In this document: one piece after another, positions 1-5,146 of the stretch
Layout: each line of letters opens with the position of its first letter
Numbering within the stretch: the first letter of the stretch is position 1
DNA from: Modestobacter italicus
GTDB taxonomy: Bacteria > Actinomycetota > Actinomycetes > Mycobacteriales > Geodermatophilaceae
Direction of reading: 5' to 3'
Assembly: GCF_000306785.1 (NCBI RefSeq)
Contig: NC_017955.1
Coordinates: 2,108,001-2,172,000, forward strand
DNA length: 64,000 bases
The notes under the pieces: generated by a model
The model's input: only the letters and a program-made list of their open reading frames with translations
Database searches by the model: none
Told to the model about the DNA's origin: nothing
Translations under genes and position numbers: made by a program

Positions 1-161
1 GCGGCCGGGTAGCGGGTCAGCTCCTCGGACGCGCCGCCGAACAGGTCGCCGTAGCGGGTGTCGTACTCGACGGCGAGGTCGGCGAACAGCGGCGCGGCCA
101 GCGGGTCGTCGAGGTGCACGCGCACCACCTGGAGGGCGTGCGGGGACAGGGACGTGGACAT
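1..161 (-). CDS. GNAT family N-acetyltransferase (C-terminus outside window)
   Basis: Only the first 53 codons are present; the gene runs off the left edge. The start is ATG at 161, with an AGGAG about ten bases upstream. The visible N-terminus (LQVVRVHLDDPLAAPLFADL, then VEYDTRYG and a ...ELTRYP segment) resembles small GNAT acetyltransferases that accompany flavin-dependent sulfur monooxygenases. It is divergent from the monooxygenase operon at 736-5622 and lies downstream of a SAM riboswitch and a Cys-type leader peptide, so it is probably sulfur regulated. In the Bacillus yxe system an N-acetyltransferase primes S-modified cysteine for an NtaA-type monooxygenase; a similar role here is inference. 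Family assignment from the N-terminus alone is moderately secure. Confidence 0.6.
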   Translation of the reverse strand, partial: MSTSLSPHALQVVRVHLDDPLAAPLFADLAVEYDTRYGDLFGGASEELTRYPA

Positions 162-231
162 GCGGGAGGAGCTCCTGTGCGGAGGCGCGCGCCGACGAGG
201 GCGCGCGGAGGTGGGACGGGAGGGCTGCGGG

Positions 232-324
232 TCAGCGACAGAGCGCGCTGTCGGTGCGCAGCAGGTCCACGGTCGGCCGGCCGACCAGGTCGGTGGCGGC
301 GGCACGGATGCCGGTCTGTCCCAC
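232..324 (-). CDS. Cys-type leader peptide of the acetyltransferase transcript
   Basis: A 30-codon reading frame with GTG start at 324 and TGA at 232-234. A GAGGAG (333-338 on the other strand) is spaced 8 bases from the start. The C-terminal half reads VDLLRTDSALCR, the hallmark of the short actinobacterial leader peptides found before sulfur-assimilation operons, with one Cys codon just before the stop. It lies between the SAM riboswitch and the acetyltransferase start. Known family behaviour: ribosome stalling at the terminal Cys codon senses cysteine and controls the downstream genes. A second, divergent leader of the same family lies at 618-713. Confidence 0.8.
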   Translation of the reverse strand: MGQTGIRAAATDLVGRPTVDLLRTDSALCR

Positions 325-391
325 GGGTGCTGCTCCTCGTTCGTCCCCTCGGGAGGGGAGGCCTCTGCTTGCCGGGCGCGGACGCGCACGG

Positions 392-474
392 CCAGGTCGT
401 CACCCGGGGCACCCCGTCGCAGGGAGGGTTGCCGGCCAGCGAGCCGGGGCTTGTCGCTGGCGCTCAGGACCTGG
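392..474 (-). ncRNA. SAM riboswitch, SAM-IV-like (actinobacterial S-box clan)
   Basis: Read on the minus strand, a 7-bp closing stem pairs CCAGGTC with GACCTGG. Inside it are the conserved pieces of the S-box clan: CTGAGCGCCAGC, AAGCCCCGGCTCGCTGGC, CCGGCAACCCTCC and GGGGTGCCCCGGGTGA. The arrangement matches actinobacterial SAM-IV elements rather than the longer Bacillus SAM-I form. It lies directly after a promoter (-10 at 480-485) and before a Cys leader peptide and the acetyltransferase, so it should switch that transcript off when S-adenosylmethionine is plentiful. A covariance search (RF00634 versus RF00162) would settle the subclass. Confidence 0.82.
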
Positions 475-479
475 CAGGG

Positions 480-509
480 ACGATAGGGGCACACCCGGCG
501 ACGCGTCAA
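480..509 (-). promoter_or_regulatory. Sigma-70-type promoter for riboswitch/acetyltransferase transcript
   Basis: On the minus strand a TTGACG -35 box (504-509) and a TATCGT -10 box (480-485) are separated by 18 bases. Transcription would begin a few bases before the riboswitch closing stem at 474, the expected spacing for a riboswitch leader. This is a sequence prediction only. Confidence 0.55.
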
Positions 510-524
510 TTACGATCGACTTGA
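506..524. promoter_or_regulatory. Candidate LysR-type operator TCAA-N11-TTGA
   Basis: An inverted repeat of TCAA and TTGA arms with an 11-base spacer fits the T-N11-A pattern of LysR-family regulators such as CysB-like proteins. It overlaps the -35 box of the leftward promoter and lies upstream of the rightward leader peptide, in an A/T-richer patch of otherwise GC-rich DNA. It could coordinate both divergent sulfur transcripts. Binding is inferred. Confidence 0.35.
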
Positions 525-617
525 TAGACATTGTGAGCCTCTGCACTCGCCGGAGGGGAACAGCCCGCCCCCCGGACGCGGTTGCGCCAGTCACCCGGAC
601 ACCGGAAGGAGACGCAC

Positions 618-713
618 GTGCCCCGCACCCCGCTGGTCTGCCGCCGGCACGTCGACCTCCTGCGCACGGCGAGCGCGCAGTGTCAGCGCACGGTCGGAAC
701 CCCGCGTCCCTGA
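618..713 (+). CDS. Cys-type leader peptide of the sulfur monooxygenase operon
   Basis: A 31-residue reading frame with GTG start at 618, preceded by GGAAGGAGA at 604-612, ending TGA at 711-713. The peptide contains LVCRRHVDLLRTASAQC, which is the conserved signature of actinobacterial sulfur-operon leader peptides. It ends 22 bases before the FAD-binding oxidoreductase start at 736. In characterised mycobacterial relatives, translation of the Cys-rich end controls expression of the downstream operon in response to cysteine. This one has two Cys codons (LVC and AQC). It is missed by ordinary gene callers because of its length. Confidence 0.85.
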   Translation: MPRTPLVCRRHVDLLRTASAQCQRTVGTPRP

Positions 714-735
714 CCCTCCGCTCCCCGGAGTCCGC

Positions 736-2616
736 ATGCCCGCCGCACCCCCGCACACCCCCGCCGGCCCGTCGATCGCCGTGGTCGGCGCCGGCCCCAC
801 CGCCATCGGCCTGCTCGAGCGGCTGGTCGCCAGCGCGCCCGAGCTGAGCGGCCCCGGCCGCCTGCAGGTGCACCTCGTCGACCCGCACCCGCCGGGCGGC
901 GGCCGGGTGTGGCGCGCGGCCCAGCCCTCGCTGCTCTGGGCCAACTCGCTGGCCGCCGACGTCACGGTGCTGCCCGACGCGTCGGTGACCGTCGACGGCC
1001 CGGTGGGCGAGGGCACCACGCTGTGGCAGTGGGTGGAGGCGGTGGGCCGGCACCTGCCCGAGGGCGACCCGGTGGGTGAGGAAGCGCGGGCGGTGACGCC
1101 GACGTCCTTCCCGTCCCGGCCGCTGGTGAACGCCTACCTGGGCTGGGTGCTGGCCGAGGTGGTCGCGGCGGCCCGCCCGTGGGCCGACGTGCACCTGCAC
1201 GAGGACACCGTGGTCGACGTCCGGGTGCGCGCCGAGGGCGTCGACGTGGAGCTCGCCGACGGTCGGGTGCTCCCCGCCGACCTGGCCGTGCTCGCCCAGG
1301 GCCACCTCGACGCGCACGCCACCGCCGCCGAGCGCGCCGTCGCCGAGCGCGCGGCCGGCGCGGGGCTCTGCTACCTCCCGACCGGCTACACCGCCGACCT
1401 CGACCTCGACCGGCTCGCGCCGGGGGAGGACGTGCTCGTCCGCGGCGCCGGGCTGGCCTTCATCGACCTCATGGTGCTGCTGACCAGCGGACGCGGCGGC
1501 CGCTTCGAGCCGGCGGGCGACGGGCTGCGCTACCTCCCCTCCGGCCAGGAGCCGGTGCTGCACGTCGGGTCCCGGCGCGGCGTGCCCTACCGGGCCAAGC
1601 TGGGCTACGTCTGGCCCGGGCCGCCGGTGCCGCTGCGGTTCTTCACCCCCGAGGCGCTGGACGCCGATCGGGAGCTCGACCTGCGCGCCGACCTGGCGCC
1701 GGTGATCGCCCGCGAGCTCGGCTGGGCGCACTACACCGAGCTGTTCCGCGCCCACCCCGAGCGCACCGCGCTGCCCTGGGCCGAGTTCGCCGACGCGTAC
1801 GTGGCCGGGGGAGACCTGACCGCCCTGGTCGCGGCCGCCGTCCCCGACCCGGCCGACCGGTTCGACCTCGCGGCCCGGGACCGGCCGCTGGCCGGGGCCC
1901 GGTTCGGTACCGCCGCCGAGCTGCAGGAGGCGGTGCGCGGGCTGGTGCGGGCCGACCTGACCCGCTCGGCGGACCCGGCGCACAGCACCGACGCCGCCGT
2001 CTTCACCGCCCTGCTGTTCTGCCACGGCACGATCGCCGGGCTGGTCGCCGCCGGGCGGCTGACGCCGCGGTCGGAGGCCGAGGACGTCGCCGGCTGGTGG
2101 ATGAACCTGTTCAGCTACCTGGCCAGCGGACCGCCGGCGCCGCGGCTGGCCGAGCTGCTCGCGCTGTCGGAGGCCGGCGTGGTCCGGTTCCTGGGCGCGG
2201 ACACCCGCTTCGACCTCGACGAGGGCACCGGGGTGTTCACCGCGCGGTCCTCCTCGGTCGACTCCGTGGTCACCGCCCGGGCGATGGTCGAGGCCCGGCT
2301 GCCCGCGCCGGCGGTCTCAGCGACCCCGGACCGGCTGGTCAGCTCGCTGGTCACCCGCGGGGTCGCCGCGGAGAAGACCGTGCCGGACGGCACCGGCACC
2401 GGCCGGCTGCACGTCGACGCCGAGCAGCGGGTGGTCAGCGCGACCGGGCTGCCGCAGGACCGGCTGTTCGCGGTCGGCTTCTGGACCTCCGGCGCCCAGG
2501 TGGCCGCCTTCGCCCGTCCCCGCACCAACGCCCCCTTCTTCCGCCAGAACGACGCCCTCGCCCGCCGGCTGTGGCAGGCCGTCACCGGCCGCGCCGCCGT
2601 CGCCGTCGCGGCCTGA
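736..2616 (+). CDS. FAD/NAD(P)-binding oxidoreductase
   Basis: A 626-residue protein of the FAD-NAD(P)-binding type (NAD_binding_9-like). The N-terminus has the dinucleotide fold motif IAVVGAGPTAIGLLERL (residues about 14-30), and a second region, VLVRGAGLAFIDLMVLL, lies near residue 235. The start ATG at 736 has GGAG five bases upstream. It is the first full gene after the Cys leader peptide and is followed after 18 bases by two flavin-dependent monooxygenases, so it probably takes part in the same sulfur-salvage pathway, either as an amine/thioether oxygenase or as a redox partner. The specific substrate cannot be read from sequence. Confidence 0.8.
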   Translation: MPAAPPHTPAGPSIAVVGAGPTAIGLLERLVASAPELSGPGRLQVHLVDPHPPGGGRVWRAAQPSLLWANSLAADVTVLPDASVTVDGPVGEGTTLWQWVEAVGRHLPEGDPVGEEARAVTPTSFPSRPLVNAYLGWVLAEVVAAARPWADVHLHEDTVVDVRVRAEGVDVELADGRVLPADLAVLAQGHLDAHATAAERAVAERAAGAGLCYLPTGYTADLDLDRLAPGEDVLVRGAGLAFIDLMVLLTSGRGGRFEPAGDGLRYLPSGQEPVLHVGSRRGVPYRAKLGYVWPGPPVPLRFFTPEALDADRELDLRADLAPVIARELGWAHYTELFRAHPERTALPWAEFADAYVAGGDLTALVAAAVPDPADRFDLAARDRPLAGARFGTAAELQEAVRGLVRADLTRSADPAHSTDAAVFTALLFCHGTIAGLVAAGRLTPRSEAEDVAGWWMNLFSYLASGPPAPRLAELLALSEAGVVRFLGADTRFDLDEGTGVFTARSSSVDSVVTARAMVEARLPAPAVSATPDRLVSSLVTRGVAAEKTVPDGTGTGRLHVDAEQRVVSATGLPQDRLFAVGFWTSGAQVAAFARPRTNAPFFRQNDALARRLWQAVTGRAAVAVAA

Positions 2617-2634: not shown

Positions 2635-3789
2635 ATGAGCACCCCCTTCCACCTCGCCGTCGCCCTCGACGGCGCCGGCTGGCACCCCGCCGCGTGGCGC
2701 GAGCCCGACGCCCGCCCGACCGAGCTGCTCACCCCCCGGTACTGGGTCGACCTGGTGCAGGAGGCCGAGCGCGGCCTGCTCGACCTGGTCACCATCGAGG
2801 ACGGCCTGTCCCTGCAGTCCACCGACCGCCAGGGCCCGGACGAGCGCACCGACCAGGTGCGCGGCCGGCTGGACGCCGTCCAGGTCGCCGCCCGGGTCGC
2901 GCCGCTGACGTCGGCGATCGGGCTGGTGCCGACCGCGATCGCCACCCACACCGAGCCGTTCCACCTGTCCAAGGCGATCGCCACCCTCGACTACGTGAGC
3001 ACCGGCCGCGCCGGCGTCCGGGTCAAGGTCAGCAGCAGCCCGGCCGAGGCCGCCCACATCGGCCGCCGCGCGGTCCTCGGCACCGACGACCTGTTCGCCG
3101 AGGCCGCCGACTGGGTCGAGGTGCTCCGCCGGCTCTGGGACAGCTGGGAGGACGACGCGGAGGTCCGCGACGTCGCCACCGGCCGGTTCGTCGACCGGGA
3201 GAAGCTGCACTACATCGACTTCGAGGGCCGGTTCTTCTCGGTGAAGGGCCCCTCGATCACGCCCCGGCCGCCGCAGGGCCAGCCGGTGGTGGCGGCGCTG
3301 GCGCACCAGCAGCTGCCGTACGAGTTCGTGGCCGGCAGCACCGACCTGGGGTTCGTCACCCCGACGGACGCCGCCGACGCCGGCCGCATCCTGGGCCTGG
3401 TGCGCACCGCCCAGGACGCCGCCGGCCGGGCCGCGGAGACCGTGCACGTGTTCGGCGACCTGGTCGTGTTCCTGGACGACGACGCCGCGACCGCCCGCGC
3501 CCGCCGCGACCGGCTCGACGAGCGCGCCAGGGCCGGGTACCGCAGCGATGCCGCCGTCTACGTCGGGACCCCGGCCGGGCTGGCCGACCAGCTCACCGAG
3601 TGGGCGCAGGCCGGGCTGACCGGGTTCCGGCTCCGGCCGGCGACCCTGCCGCACGACCTGCGGCAGGTCACCACCGGCCTGGTGCCCGAGCTGCAGCGCC
3701 GCGGCCTGTTCCGGACGGCCTACGAGGCGTCCACCCTGCGCGGCCTGCTCGGGCTCCCGCGCCCCGCCAACCGCTACGCCACCGCCTGA
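2635..3789 (+). CDS. LLM-class flavin-dependent monooxygenase
   Basis: A 384-residue bacterial-luciferase-like TIM-barrel oxidoreductase. Visible family segments are the N-terminal FHLAVALDG strand, ERGLLDLVTIEDGL near residue 48, and TLDYVSTGRAGVRVKVSS near residue 118, which corresponds to the usual LDxxSxGR...V motif. Such enzymes use FMNH2 and O2 to oxidise and cleave C-S bonds or related substrates. It ends 10 bases before a second, larger family member, and the operon finishes with a flavin reductase that would supply FMNH2. The upstream Cys leader peptide suggests induction under sulfur limitation. The substrate is unknown. Confidence 0.85.
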   Translation: MSTPFHLAVALDGAGWHPAAWREPDARPTELLTPRYWVDLVQEAERGLLDLVTIEDGLSLQSTDRQGPDERTDQVRGRLDAVQVAARVAPLTSAIGLVPTAIATHTEPFHLSKAIATLDYVSTGRAGVRVKVSSSPAEAAHIGRRAVLGTDDLFAEAADWVEVLRRLWDSWEDDAEVRDVATGRFVDREKLHYIDFEGRFFSVKGPSITPRPPQGQPVVAALAHQQLPYEFVAGSTDLGFVTPTDAADAGRILGLVRTAQDAAGRAAETVHVFGDLVVFLDDDAATARARRDRLDERARAGYRSDAAVYVGTPAGLADQLTEWAQAGLTGFRLRPATLPHDLRQVTTGLVPELQRRGLFRTAYEASTLRGLLGLPRPANRYATA

Positions 3790-3799
3790 GGACGCCGTC

Positions 3800-5146
3800 A
3801 TGACCAAGCAGGTCCACCTCGCCGCGCACTTCCCCGGCGTCAACAACACCACCGTGTGGAGCGACCCGGCCGCCGGCAGCCACATCGAGTTCTCCTCGTT
3901 CGTCCGCTTCGCCCAGGCCGCCGAGCGCGGGAAGTTCGACTTCCTGTTCCTCGCCGAGGGGCTGCGGCTGCGCGAGCAGAACGGCGCGATCTACGACCTG
4001 GACGTCGTCGGCCGCCCGGACACCTTCACCGTGCTCGCGGCGCTGGCCGCGGTCACCGAGCACCTCGGCCTGGCCGGCACGATCAACTCGACGTTCAACG
4101 AGCCCTACGAGGTGGCCCGCCAGTTCGCCTCGCTGGACCACCTGTCCGGCGGCCGGGCGGCCTGGAACGTCGTCACCTCCTGGGACGCGTTCACCGGGGA
4201 GAACTTCCGCCGCGGCGGCTTCCTGGCCCAGGACCAGCGCTACGAGCGGGCCCGCACCTTCCTGGCCACCGTGCAGGAGCTGCTGGACAGCTGGCGGGGG
4301 GACGAGGTCGTCGCCGACCCGGCCAGCGGGGTGTTCCTCGCCGACCCGGCCGCGGGCACCTTCGCGCACACCGACGCGCACTTCGACATCTCCGGCCGCT
4401 TCGACGTCCCGCGCAGCCCGCAGGGCCGGCCGGTCGTCTTCCAGGCCGGCGACTCCGAGGAGGGCCGCGAGTTCGCCGCCTCGGCGGCCGACGCGATCTT
4501 CAGCCGGCACGGCACCAAGGAGGCCGGCCAGGCCTTCTACGCCGACGTCAAGGGCCGGCTGGCGAAGTACGGCCGGACCCCGGCAGACCTGCTGATCCTC
4601 CCGGCCGCCACCTTCGTGATCGGTGAGACCGACGCGGAGGCCGCCGAGCTCGCCGCCGAGGTGCGCCGGCAGCAGGTGTCCGGGCAGACGGCGCTGCGCA
4701 AGCTCGAGGAGGTCTGGAACCGGGACCTCTCCGGCTACGACCCCGACGGCCCGCTGCCCGAGGTCGACCCGCTGGTCGGCGAGCACACCGTGGCCCGGGG
4801 CCGGGCCAGCGTGCGGATGAACCGCGACCCGCTGGCGGTCGCCAGGGCCTGGCGCGAGCAGGCCGACGCCAAGGGCCTGTCGATCCGCGAGCTGATGATC
4901 GAGACCAGCAGCCGGCAGTCGTTCATCGGCAGCCCGACCACCGTCGCCGAGCAGATGATCGACCTGGTGCAGTCCGACGCCAGCGACGGCTTCATCCTGG
5001 TCCCGCACATCACCCCCGGCGGCCTGGACCCGGTGGTGGACTCCGTCGTCCCGGTGCTGCAGGAACGCGGGGTCTACCGCACGGAGTACCCGGGGACGAC
5101 GCTGCGCGACAACCTCGGCCTGCCCCCGCTCGGCGGTGCCGCGTGA
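3800..5146 (+). CDS. NtaA/SnaA/DszA-family FMN-dependent monooxygenase
   Basis: A 448-residue member of the NtaA/SnaA/DszA/ScmK group of two-component flavin monooxygenases. Family features include HLAAHFPGVNNTTVW near the start, FARFAQ-like FVRFAQAAERGKFDF at about 33, EPYEVARQFASLDHLSGGR at about 97, and AAWNVVTSWD immediately after. Length is typical. Enzymes of this group oxidise sulfides, sulfonates or N-acetyl-S-succinylcysteine using reduced FMN. The last codons overlap the GTG start of the flavin reductase (GTGA), indicating translational coupling of oxygenase and reductase. A nearby acetyltransferase would fit an S-substituted cysteine salvage route, but this is inference. Confidence 0.88.
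   Translation: MTKQVHLAAHFPGVNNTTVWSDPAAGSHIEFSSFVRFAQAAERGKFDFLFLAEGLRLREQNGAIYDLDVVGRPDTFTVLAALAAVTEHLGLAGTINSTFNEPYEVARQFASLDHLSGGRAAWNVVTSWDAFTGENFRRGGFLAQDQRYERARTFLATVQELLDSWRGDEVVADPASGVFLADPAAGTFAHTDAHFDISGRFDVPRSPQGRPVVFQAGDSEEGREFAASAADAIFSRHGTKEAGQAFYADVKGRLAKYGRTPADLLILPAATFVIGETDAEAAELAAEVRRQQVSGQTALRKLEEVWNRDLSGYDPDGPLPEVDPLVGEHTVARGRASVRMNRDPLAVARAWREQADAKGLSIRELMIETSSRQSFIGSPTTVAEQMIDLVQSDASDGFILVPHITPGGLDPVVDSVVPVLQERGVYRTEYPGTTLRDNLGLPPLGGAA

Follow-up and report, generated by a model that had tools for sequence, protein, structure and literature searches.

A SAM-IV riboswitch placed ahead of a cysteine leader peptide in a divergent sulfur region of Modestobacter italicus and its relatives

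A divergent intergenic region of the soil actinobacterium Modestobacter italicus (contig NC_017955.1) raises the question whether one transcript can respond to the supply of both S-adenosylmethionine (SAM) and cysteine. The window, i.e., the whole stretch of DNA that was analysed, has a length of 64,000 nucleotides; the gap within it (positions 162-735, 574 bases) is flanked by a leftward gene with its ATG at 161 and a rightward gene starting at 736. The initial annotation had described a divergent gap with a separate short leader peptide in each arm and the ending DLLRTxSAxC in both peptides, which was confirmed by ORF coordinates and translations. Conservation and gene context speak for its reading of two Cys leaders and one SAM riboswitch as sulfur control. 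The riboswitch is, as had been claimed, confined to the left arm; the rightward arm has a leader ORF without a riboswitch. The features of the region are listed in Table 1.

Table 1. Features of the divergent region and of the flanking genes (positions in the window)
Feature	Position	Strand	Evidence or remarks
GNAT acetyltransferase gene, first of the left operon	1..161 (start only; rest outside the window)	-	gene context
C-rich tract from leader stop to gene start, candidate Rho-loading (rut) region	162..231	-	skew; without intrinsic terminator
Frozen block ACCGACAGCGCGCTCTGTCGCTGACC, last 8 codons + 2 nt	230..255	-	near-invariant, including synonymous sites
Left Cys leader ORF, MGQTGIRAAATDLVGRPTVDLLRTDSALCR and stop	232..324	-	30 codons, GTG start, AGGAG Shine-Dalgarno
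Aptamer-to-leader linker, CCCC-GGGG hairpin and leader Shine-Dalgarno AGGAG	325..359	-	sequence; alignment of 24 relatives
SAM-IV riboswitch aptamer (RF00634)	360..471	-	92 bits vs gathering score 38
Leftward sigma-70-type promoter TTGACG-18-TATCGT	480..509	-	1 found, 0.0 expected in shuffles
Promoter-proximal DNA element CTATCAAGTCGATCGTAATTGAC, family consensus CTACCAARTCGATCGGATTTGACG	505..527	-	conserved; possible regulator site
Right Cys leader ORF, MPRTPLVCRRHVDLLRTASAQCQRTVGTPRP and stop	618..713	+	31 codons; NF042934 29.6 bits, cut-off 27
FAD-NAD(P)-binding protein gene, first of the right operon	736..2616	+	PF13454, E 3.6e-38
Two NtaA/DmoA-type flavin-dependent monooxygenase genes	2635-3789, 3800-5146	+	TIGR03860, PF00296

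The left operon encodes, in this order, a GNAT acetyltransferase, an ABC permease, an ATPase and two family-3 binding proteins; the best NCBIfam match of the ATPase was the cystine transporter ATPase TcyN, with a score below the cut-off. Regarding the two monooxygenases of the right operon, the second scored above the TIGR03860 cut-off and the first 0.2 bits under it. The first gene of the right operon showed an identity of 94% to Modestobacter altitudinis and Geodermatophilaceae bacterium URHA0031, and its named relatives belonged to Modestobacter, Geodermatophilus and Blastococcus; no SAM-IV was found near relatives of this FAD gene in Lentzea, Amycolatopsis and Actinopolymorpha. The Bacillus subtilis ytmI-tcyJKLMN-ytmO-ytnJ operon serves the uptake and breakdown of S-alkyl-cysteines. 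We take the left and right arms together to resemble this operon in gene content. A cysteine-making salvage route would sensibly be shut if either cysteine or SAM were ample. In one relative (L015) most of the GNAT gene is lost, and the leader now stands ahead of a monooxygenase-type gene.

The claim of a leftward promoter directly ahead of the riboswitch also held: on the minus strand, TTGACG (509-504) and TATCGT (485-480) are separated by an 18-nt spacer, and TTGAC and -10 boxes are equally placed ahead of the aptamers in nearly all of the 24 relatives. The aptamer starts approximately 9 nt past the -10 box, and this, together with a leader start in the slot normally taken by the enzyme start codon, strongly supports the proposed location of the riboswitch and the left leader on one transcript. 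The covariance search yielded a full-length match to RF00634 (model positions 1-116, E 1.2e-16), which confirmed the suspected class, whereas the extent had been guessed as 380-480 and was corrected to 360-471; no match to RF00162 was listed in this search of the locus. The aptamer presumably binds SAM. The CUGC of its P3 loop could pair with GCAG in the 3' tail to form a pseudoknot (from the alignment, inspected by eye).

This aptamer is one of three SAM-IV in the 5.58 Mb genome. Across the genus, 28 SAM-IV were found, of three main kinds according to what comes next: those before a class V aminotransferase (cysteine desulfurase-like), those before a leader of the left type, and those before what we take, from reading the protein sequence, to be an O-acetylhomoserine sulfhydrylase-like gene.

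The CTACCAARTCGATCGGATTTGACG element overlaps and precedes the -35 box at both leader-type and class V-type SAM-IV promoters, family-wide (L001, L013, L016 and others). The exact pattern has a single match in the genome of M. italicus, at 505-527, and the element may be the operator of some sulfur regulator.

Compared with NF042934, a family of actinobacterial cis-regulatory attenuators annotated as 'putative leader peptide', the left leader scored 18.4 bits, under the cut-off of 27; all 19 distinct left-type sequences matched the family model at E <= 1 (best E 2.1e-7). It shares with the family the ending xVDLLRxxSAxC, a late Cys codon and a position upstream of sulfur/cysteine genes, and differs in carrying LVGRP instead of RRH and in the riboswitch ahead of its start. 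The left leader is, by its sequence, related to NF042934, yet it is not filed as a member.

Single-base differences in the eleven codons ahead of the last eight were counted among 20 distinct left-leader sequences, which gave 548 synonymous vs 162 non-synonymous differences in frame (pair counts, which are not independent events) and 39/627 and 41/627 in the other two frames. Changes in N-terminal length stay in frame in 23 of 24 loci. The contrast between the frames is large, and the core of the left leader is, to judge by these counts, evolving as a protein. Both observations tell against a reading in which the ORFs are untranslated and conserved solely as an RNA element or a DNA site, which we consider very improbable; it could draw on the last eight codons, which are frozen at the nucleotide level, and on a leader frameshift in one relative (L034, possibly an assembly error).

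The order of SAM-IV followed by an LVGRPxxDLLRTDSALCR leader was found at 24 loci in seven genera of Geodermatophilaceae; since the unit recurs at so many loci and with protein-like evolution, it lies far beyond chance. A second type of SAM-IV-leader pair within the same family (L121, L133, L138) consists of a variant aptamer with a GGCATCGAGTGTC start and a RRHIDLQLVTSALC leader. The downstream gene of this second type looks like a lipoprotein binding protein.

When 395 actinomycete genomes were searched by pattern, SAM-IV-leader pairs were found in four genomes from four other families. From N-terminal reading, the genes that follow are presumably cysD (L141), an FMN reductase-like gene (L142), a luciferase-like monooxygenase (L143) and an ABC binding protein (L145). 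In a class-wide sample, one of the 110 top-scoring SAM-IV was followed by a true leader, and the pairing is thus a minority arrangement outside the Geodermatophilaceae, uncommon yet recurrent. Another pattern, which misses the window's own locus, gave no matches in a phylum sample composed mostly of other classes. Among the seven class-level pattern matches, one (L146) was rejected as metK-like and due to chance. Another of the seven (L147, 1501-1636) was rejected or is doubtful, with Tyr where Cys is expected; it comprises a SAM-IV-like stretch and then a leader ending in HIDLLRVSSAY.

The left leader begins 35 nt past the aptamer end in M. italicus, and across the tandem SAM-IV-leader loci this distance is 14-36 nt. 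Where SAM-IV is tied directly to metY-type or class V enzymes, the distance from the aptamer to the start codon is mostly about 30-45 nt. The leader start therefore occupies the usual target slot of SAM-IV, which argues that the output of the riboswitch acts on translation of the leader and not on the enzyme gene. We infer control by SAM of the leader rather than of the gene mainly from this position, an argument that is positional and not functional. The predicted accessibility of the leader Shine-Dalgarno was the same with and without the aptamer tail, in a crude test in which the metY riboswitch controls also stayed the same and the class V start was mis-picked; RNAalifold yielded no consensus structure for the platform region.

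The main rival of a series arrangement is a pair of independent valves, in which SAM-IV would set transcription or RNA stability and a stall of the leader ribosome at Cys would separately free the ribosome-binding site of the gene (translation attenuation, reportedly the mode of mycobacterial poly-Cys leaders), the leader not being gated by SAM and the logic being the same or graded. The right arm and further operons of this genome have a Cys leader but no SAM-IV ahead of them, and elsewhere SAM-IV stands without a leader; each sensor thus works without the other. The placement of the leader start in the usual SAM-IV slot would, however, be needless if the sensors were independent, and no conserved structure sequestering the GNAT Shine-Dalgarno is visible, because the sequence past the left-leader stop is not conserved among the relatives. 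We regard independent valves as possible, if on the unlikely side; their logic is shared with the series gate, i.e., ON only at low SAM and low cysteine.

The 3' end of the left leader is under a different constraint from its core. Over the last eight codons (ACC GAC AGC GCG CTC TGT CGC TGA) the third-position entropies sum to 0.29 bits vs 9.21 bits over the preceding eleven, and the freezing of synonymous sites implies a further constraint on the leader end, as RNA or via codon choice. The UGU Cys codon lies at 240-238. The Cys of the motif is encoded by TGT in 23 of 23 left leaders, in 9 of 10 right-arm leaders (the M. italicus copy included) and, with few exceptions, in 32 further leaders of the family; the preference was noted across L260-L299 and in both leaders of the window. 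Among the high-GC3 ORFs of the window, TGC accounts for 138 and UGU for 9 of 147 Cys codons, approximately 15 to 1 for UGC. RNAalifold placed an almost invariant hairpin (CGACAG-CGCGCU-CUGUCG) at the leader end, which on account of its invariance lacks support from covariation and whose stability was not above that of shuffles.

An arrest peptide would also halt the ribosome here, with the residues LVGRPxxDLLRTDSALCR, and not the Cys codon, responding to a sulfur metabolite; the 13 columns that are invariant across the 19 distinct left-type peptides exceed the needs of a codon sensor. The strictest constraint, however, bears on the last eight codons as RNA, synonymous sites included, and a similar SAxC end with a nearly fixed UGU occurs in other leader contexts, and we consider an arrest peptide unlikely.

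Regarding the region past the leader stop, the C-over-G skew over 60 nt had a mean of 0.35 for 22 left leaders and of 0.38 +/- 0.07 for 32 other leaders, compared with 0.10 +/- 0.15 for 71 upstream intergenic stretches (2.8% of which reach 0.35) and 0.03 +/- 0.16 for the sequence that follows ordinary stops. A C-rich, G-poor tract thus lies directly past the stop, as in Rho-dependent leader attenuators of the tna type. The terminator scan found no intrinsic, U-tract terminator at the locus, and the terminator and antiterminator hairpins of a classical amino-acid attenuator were not found there, the folds being no better than those of shuffles. The C-rich tract and the missing intrinsic terminator provide a circumstantial fit to Rho-dependent attenuation. 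A role of Rho at actinobacterial cys leaders was suggested by a comparative study in 2005, which termed it a weak prediction (PMC1262725).

The reading that we prefer, and to which we attach about an even chance, is that the left arm has two sensors in series within one leader, which is ON only if SAM and cysteine are both low. The promoter would drive an RNA with the SAM-IV riboswitch at its 5' end, and at low SAM the left leader would be translated. If Cys-tRNA were short, the ribosome would stall at UGU, with one final Arg codon left before the stop; it would then shield the C-rich tract that starts right past the stop, and polymerase would enter the operon of the GNAT protein and the TcyN-like transporter. 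With plentiful cysteine the ribosome would leave, and at high SAM no ribosome would load on the leader; either way the C-rich tract would be exposed to Rho and the transcript would end. The right arm, with the monooxygenases, would be governed by a Cys leader alone. The AND/OR gating put forward in the initial annotation is plausible and can be narrowed, as most mechanisms that fit the order of riboswitch, leader and gene would give expression only with SAM and cysteine both low.

Precedents for the gating of an upstream ORF (uORF) by a riboswitch exist in Mycobacterium tuberculosis, one of them with Rho (PMC11260477; PMC12810186). The mycobacterial Mbox riboswitch controls a uORF together with Rho termination, and such a platform thus exists in actinobacteria (PMC12810186). 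The B12 and Mbox riboswitches of M. tuberculosis share with the present locus the order of riboswitch and uORF, and Mbox combines a translational platform with Rho termination; they differ in that their uORF is not known to sense an amino acid and that a single signal is read, whereas two sulfur signals would be read here (PMC11260477, PMC12810186). Tandem riboswitch gates likewise place two sensors in one 5' UTR with a Boolean output, but the second sensor here is a translated peptide and not an aptamer (PMC5912903, PMC9481103).

As with other SAM-IV (RF00634), the transcript opens with a full-length aptamer, ahead of sulfur genes; unlike with those, the first ORF is a Cys leader peptide and not an enzyme. 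Mycobacterial leaderless short ORFs with poly-Cys runs upstream of sulfur operons are said to act by translational attenuation (reportedly Canestrari et al. 2020). They have in common with the left leader that a short ORF with Cys codons, upstream of sulfur operons, would sense the cysteine supply. The left leader does not combine a Cys run with a leaderless start: it has one Cys codon, a Shine-Dalgarno and more than 140 nt of RNA upstream, including the riboswitch. Most left leaders contain one Cys codon only, which is weaker than the mycobacterial poly-Cys leaders.

SAM-IV, the leader family, riboswitch-controlled uORFs and tandem-riboswitch gates are thus already known. A full-text search of open-licence papers found no report of a riboswitch ahead of a cysteine leader, a leader-peptide case is absent from the tandem-riboswitch review, and the combination of a SAM riboswitch with a Cys leader appears to be unreported in the open-licence literature searched. 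The new element would be that SAM and cysteine, as linked end products, are read in series, and the pairing probably restricts the sulfur-scavenging operon to times when both are scarce. We judge the chances to be even that this is a natural gate with two inputs, where a metabolite riboswitch would license the translation of an amino-acid-sensing leader and a single 5' UTR would integrate SAM and cysteine; the pairing recurs across several actinomycete families and may have arisen repeatedly. The short leader, the single Cys codon and the sister operons with each sensor alone, which serve as natural controls, make a testable set; the frozen UGU and the C-rich tract offer a handle on actinobacterial cysteine leaders that work without intrinsic terminators.

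Further arrangements of SAM-IV were seen among the relatives. The class V enzyme under SAM-IV (L001, L013, L014, L016, L017) begins with MSxAxLC, with UGU/UGC at about codon 7; this start, absent from some relatives, recalls the SALC ending of the leader. Flavin-dependent monooxygenase genes with their own SAM-IV directly upstream occur in one genus of Geodermatophilaceae (L096, L099, L105, L113, L115, L123), and in two cases (L084/L113 and L085/L115) paired SAM-IV lie back to back with approximately 95 nt between them.
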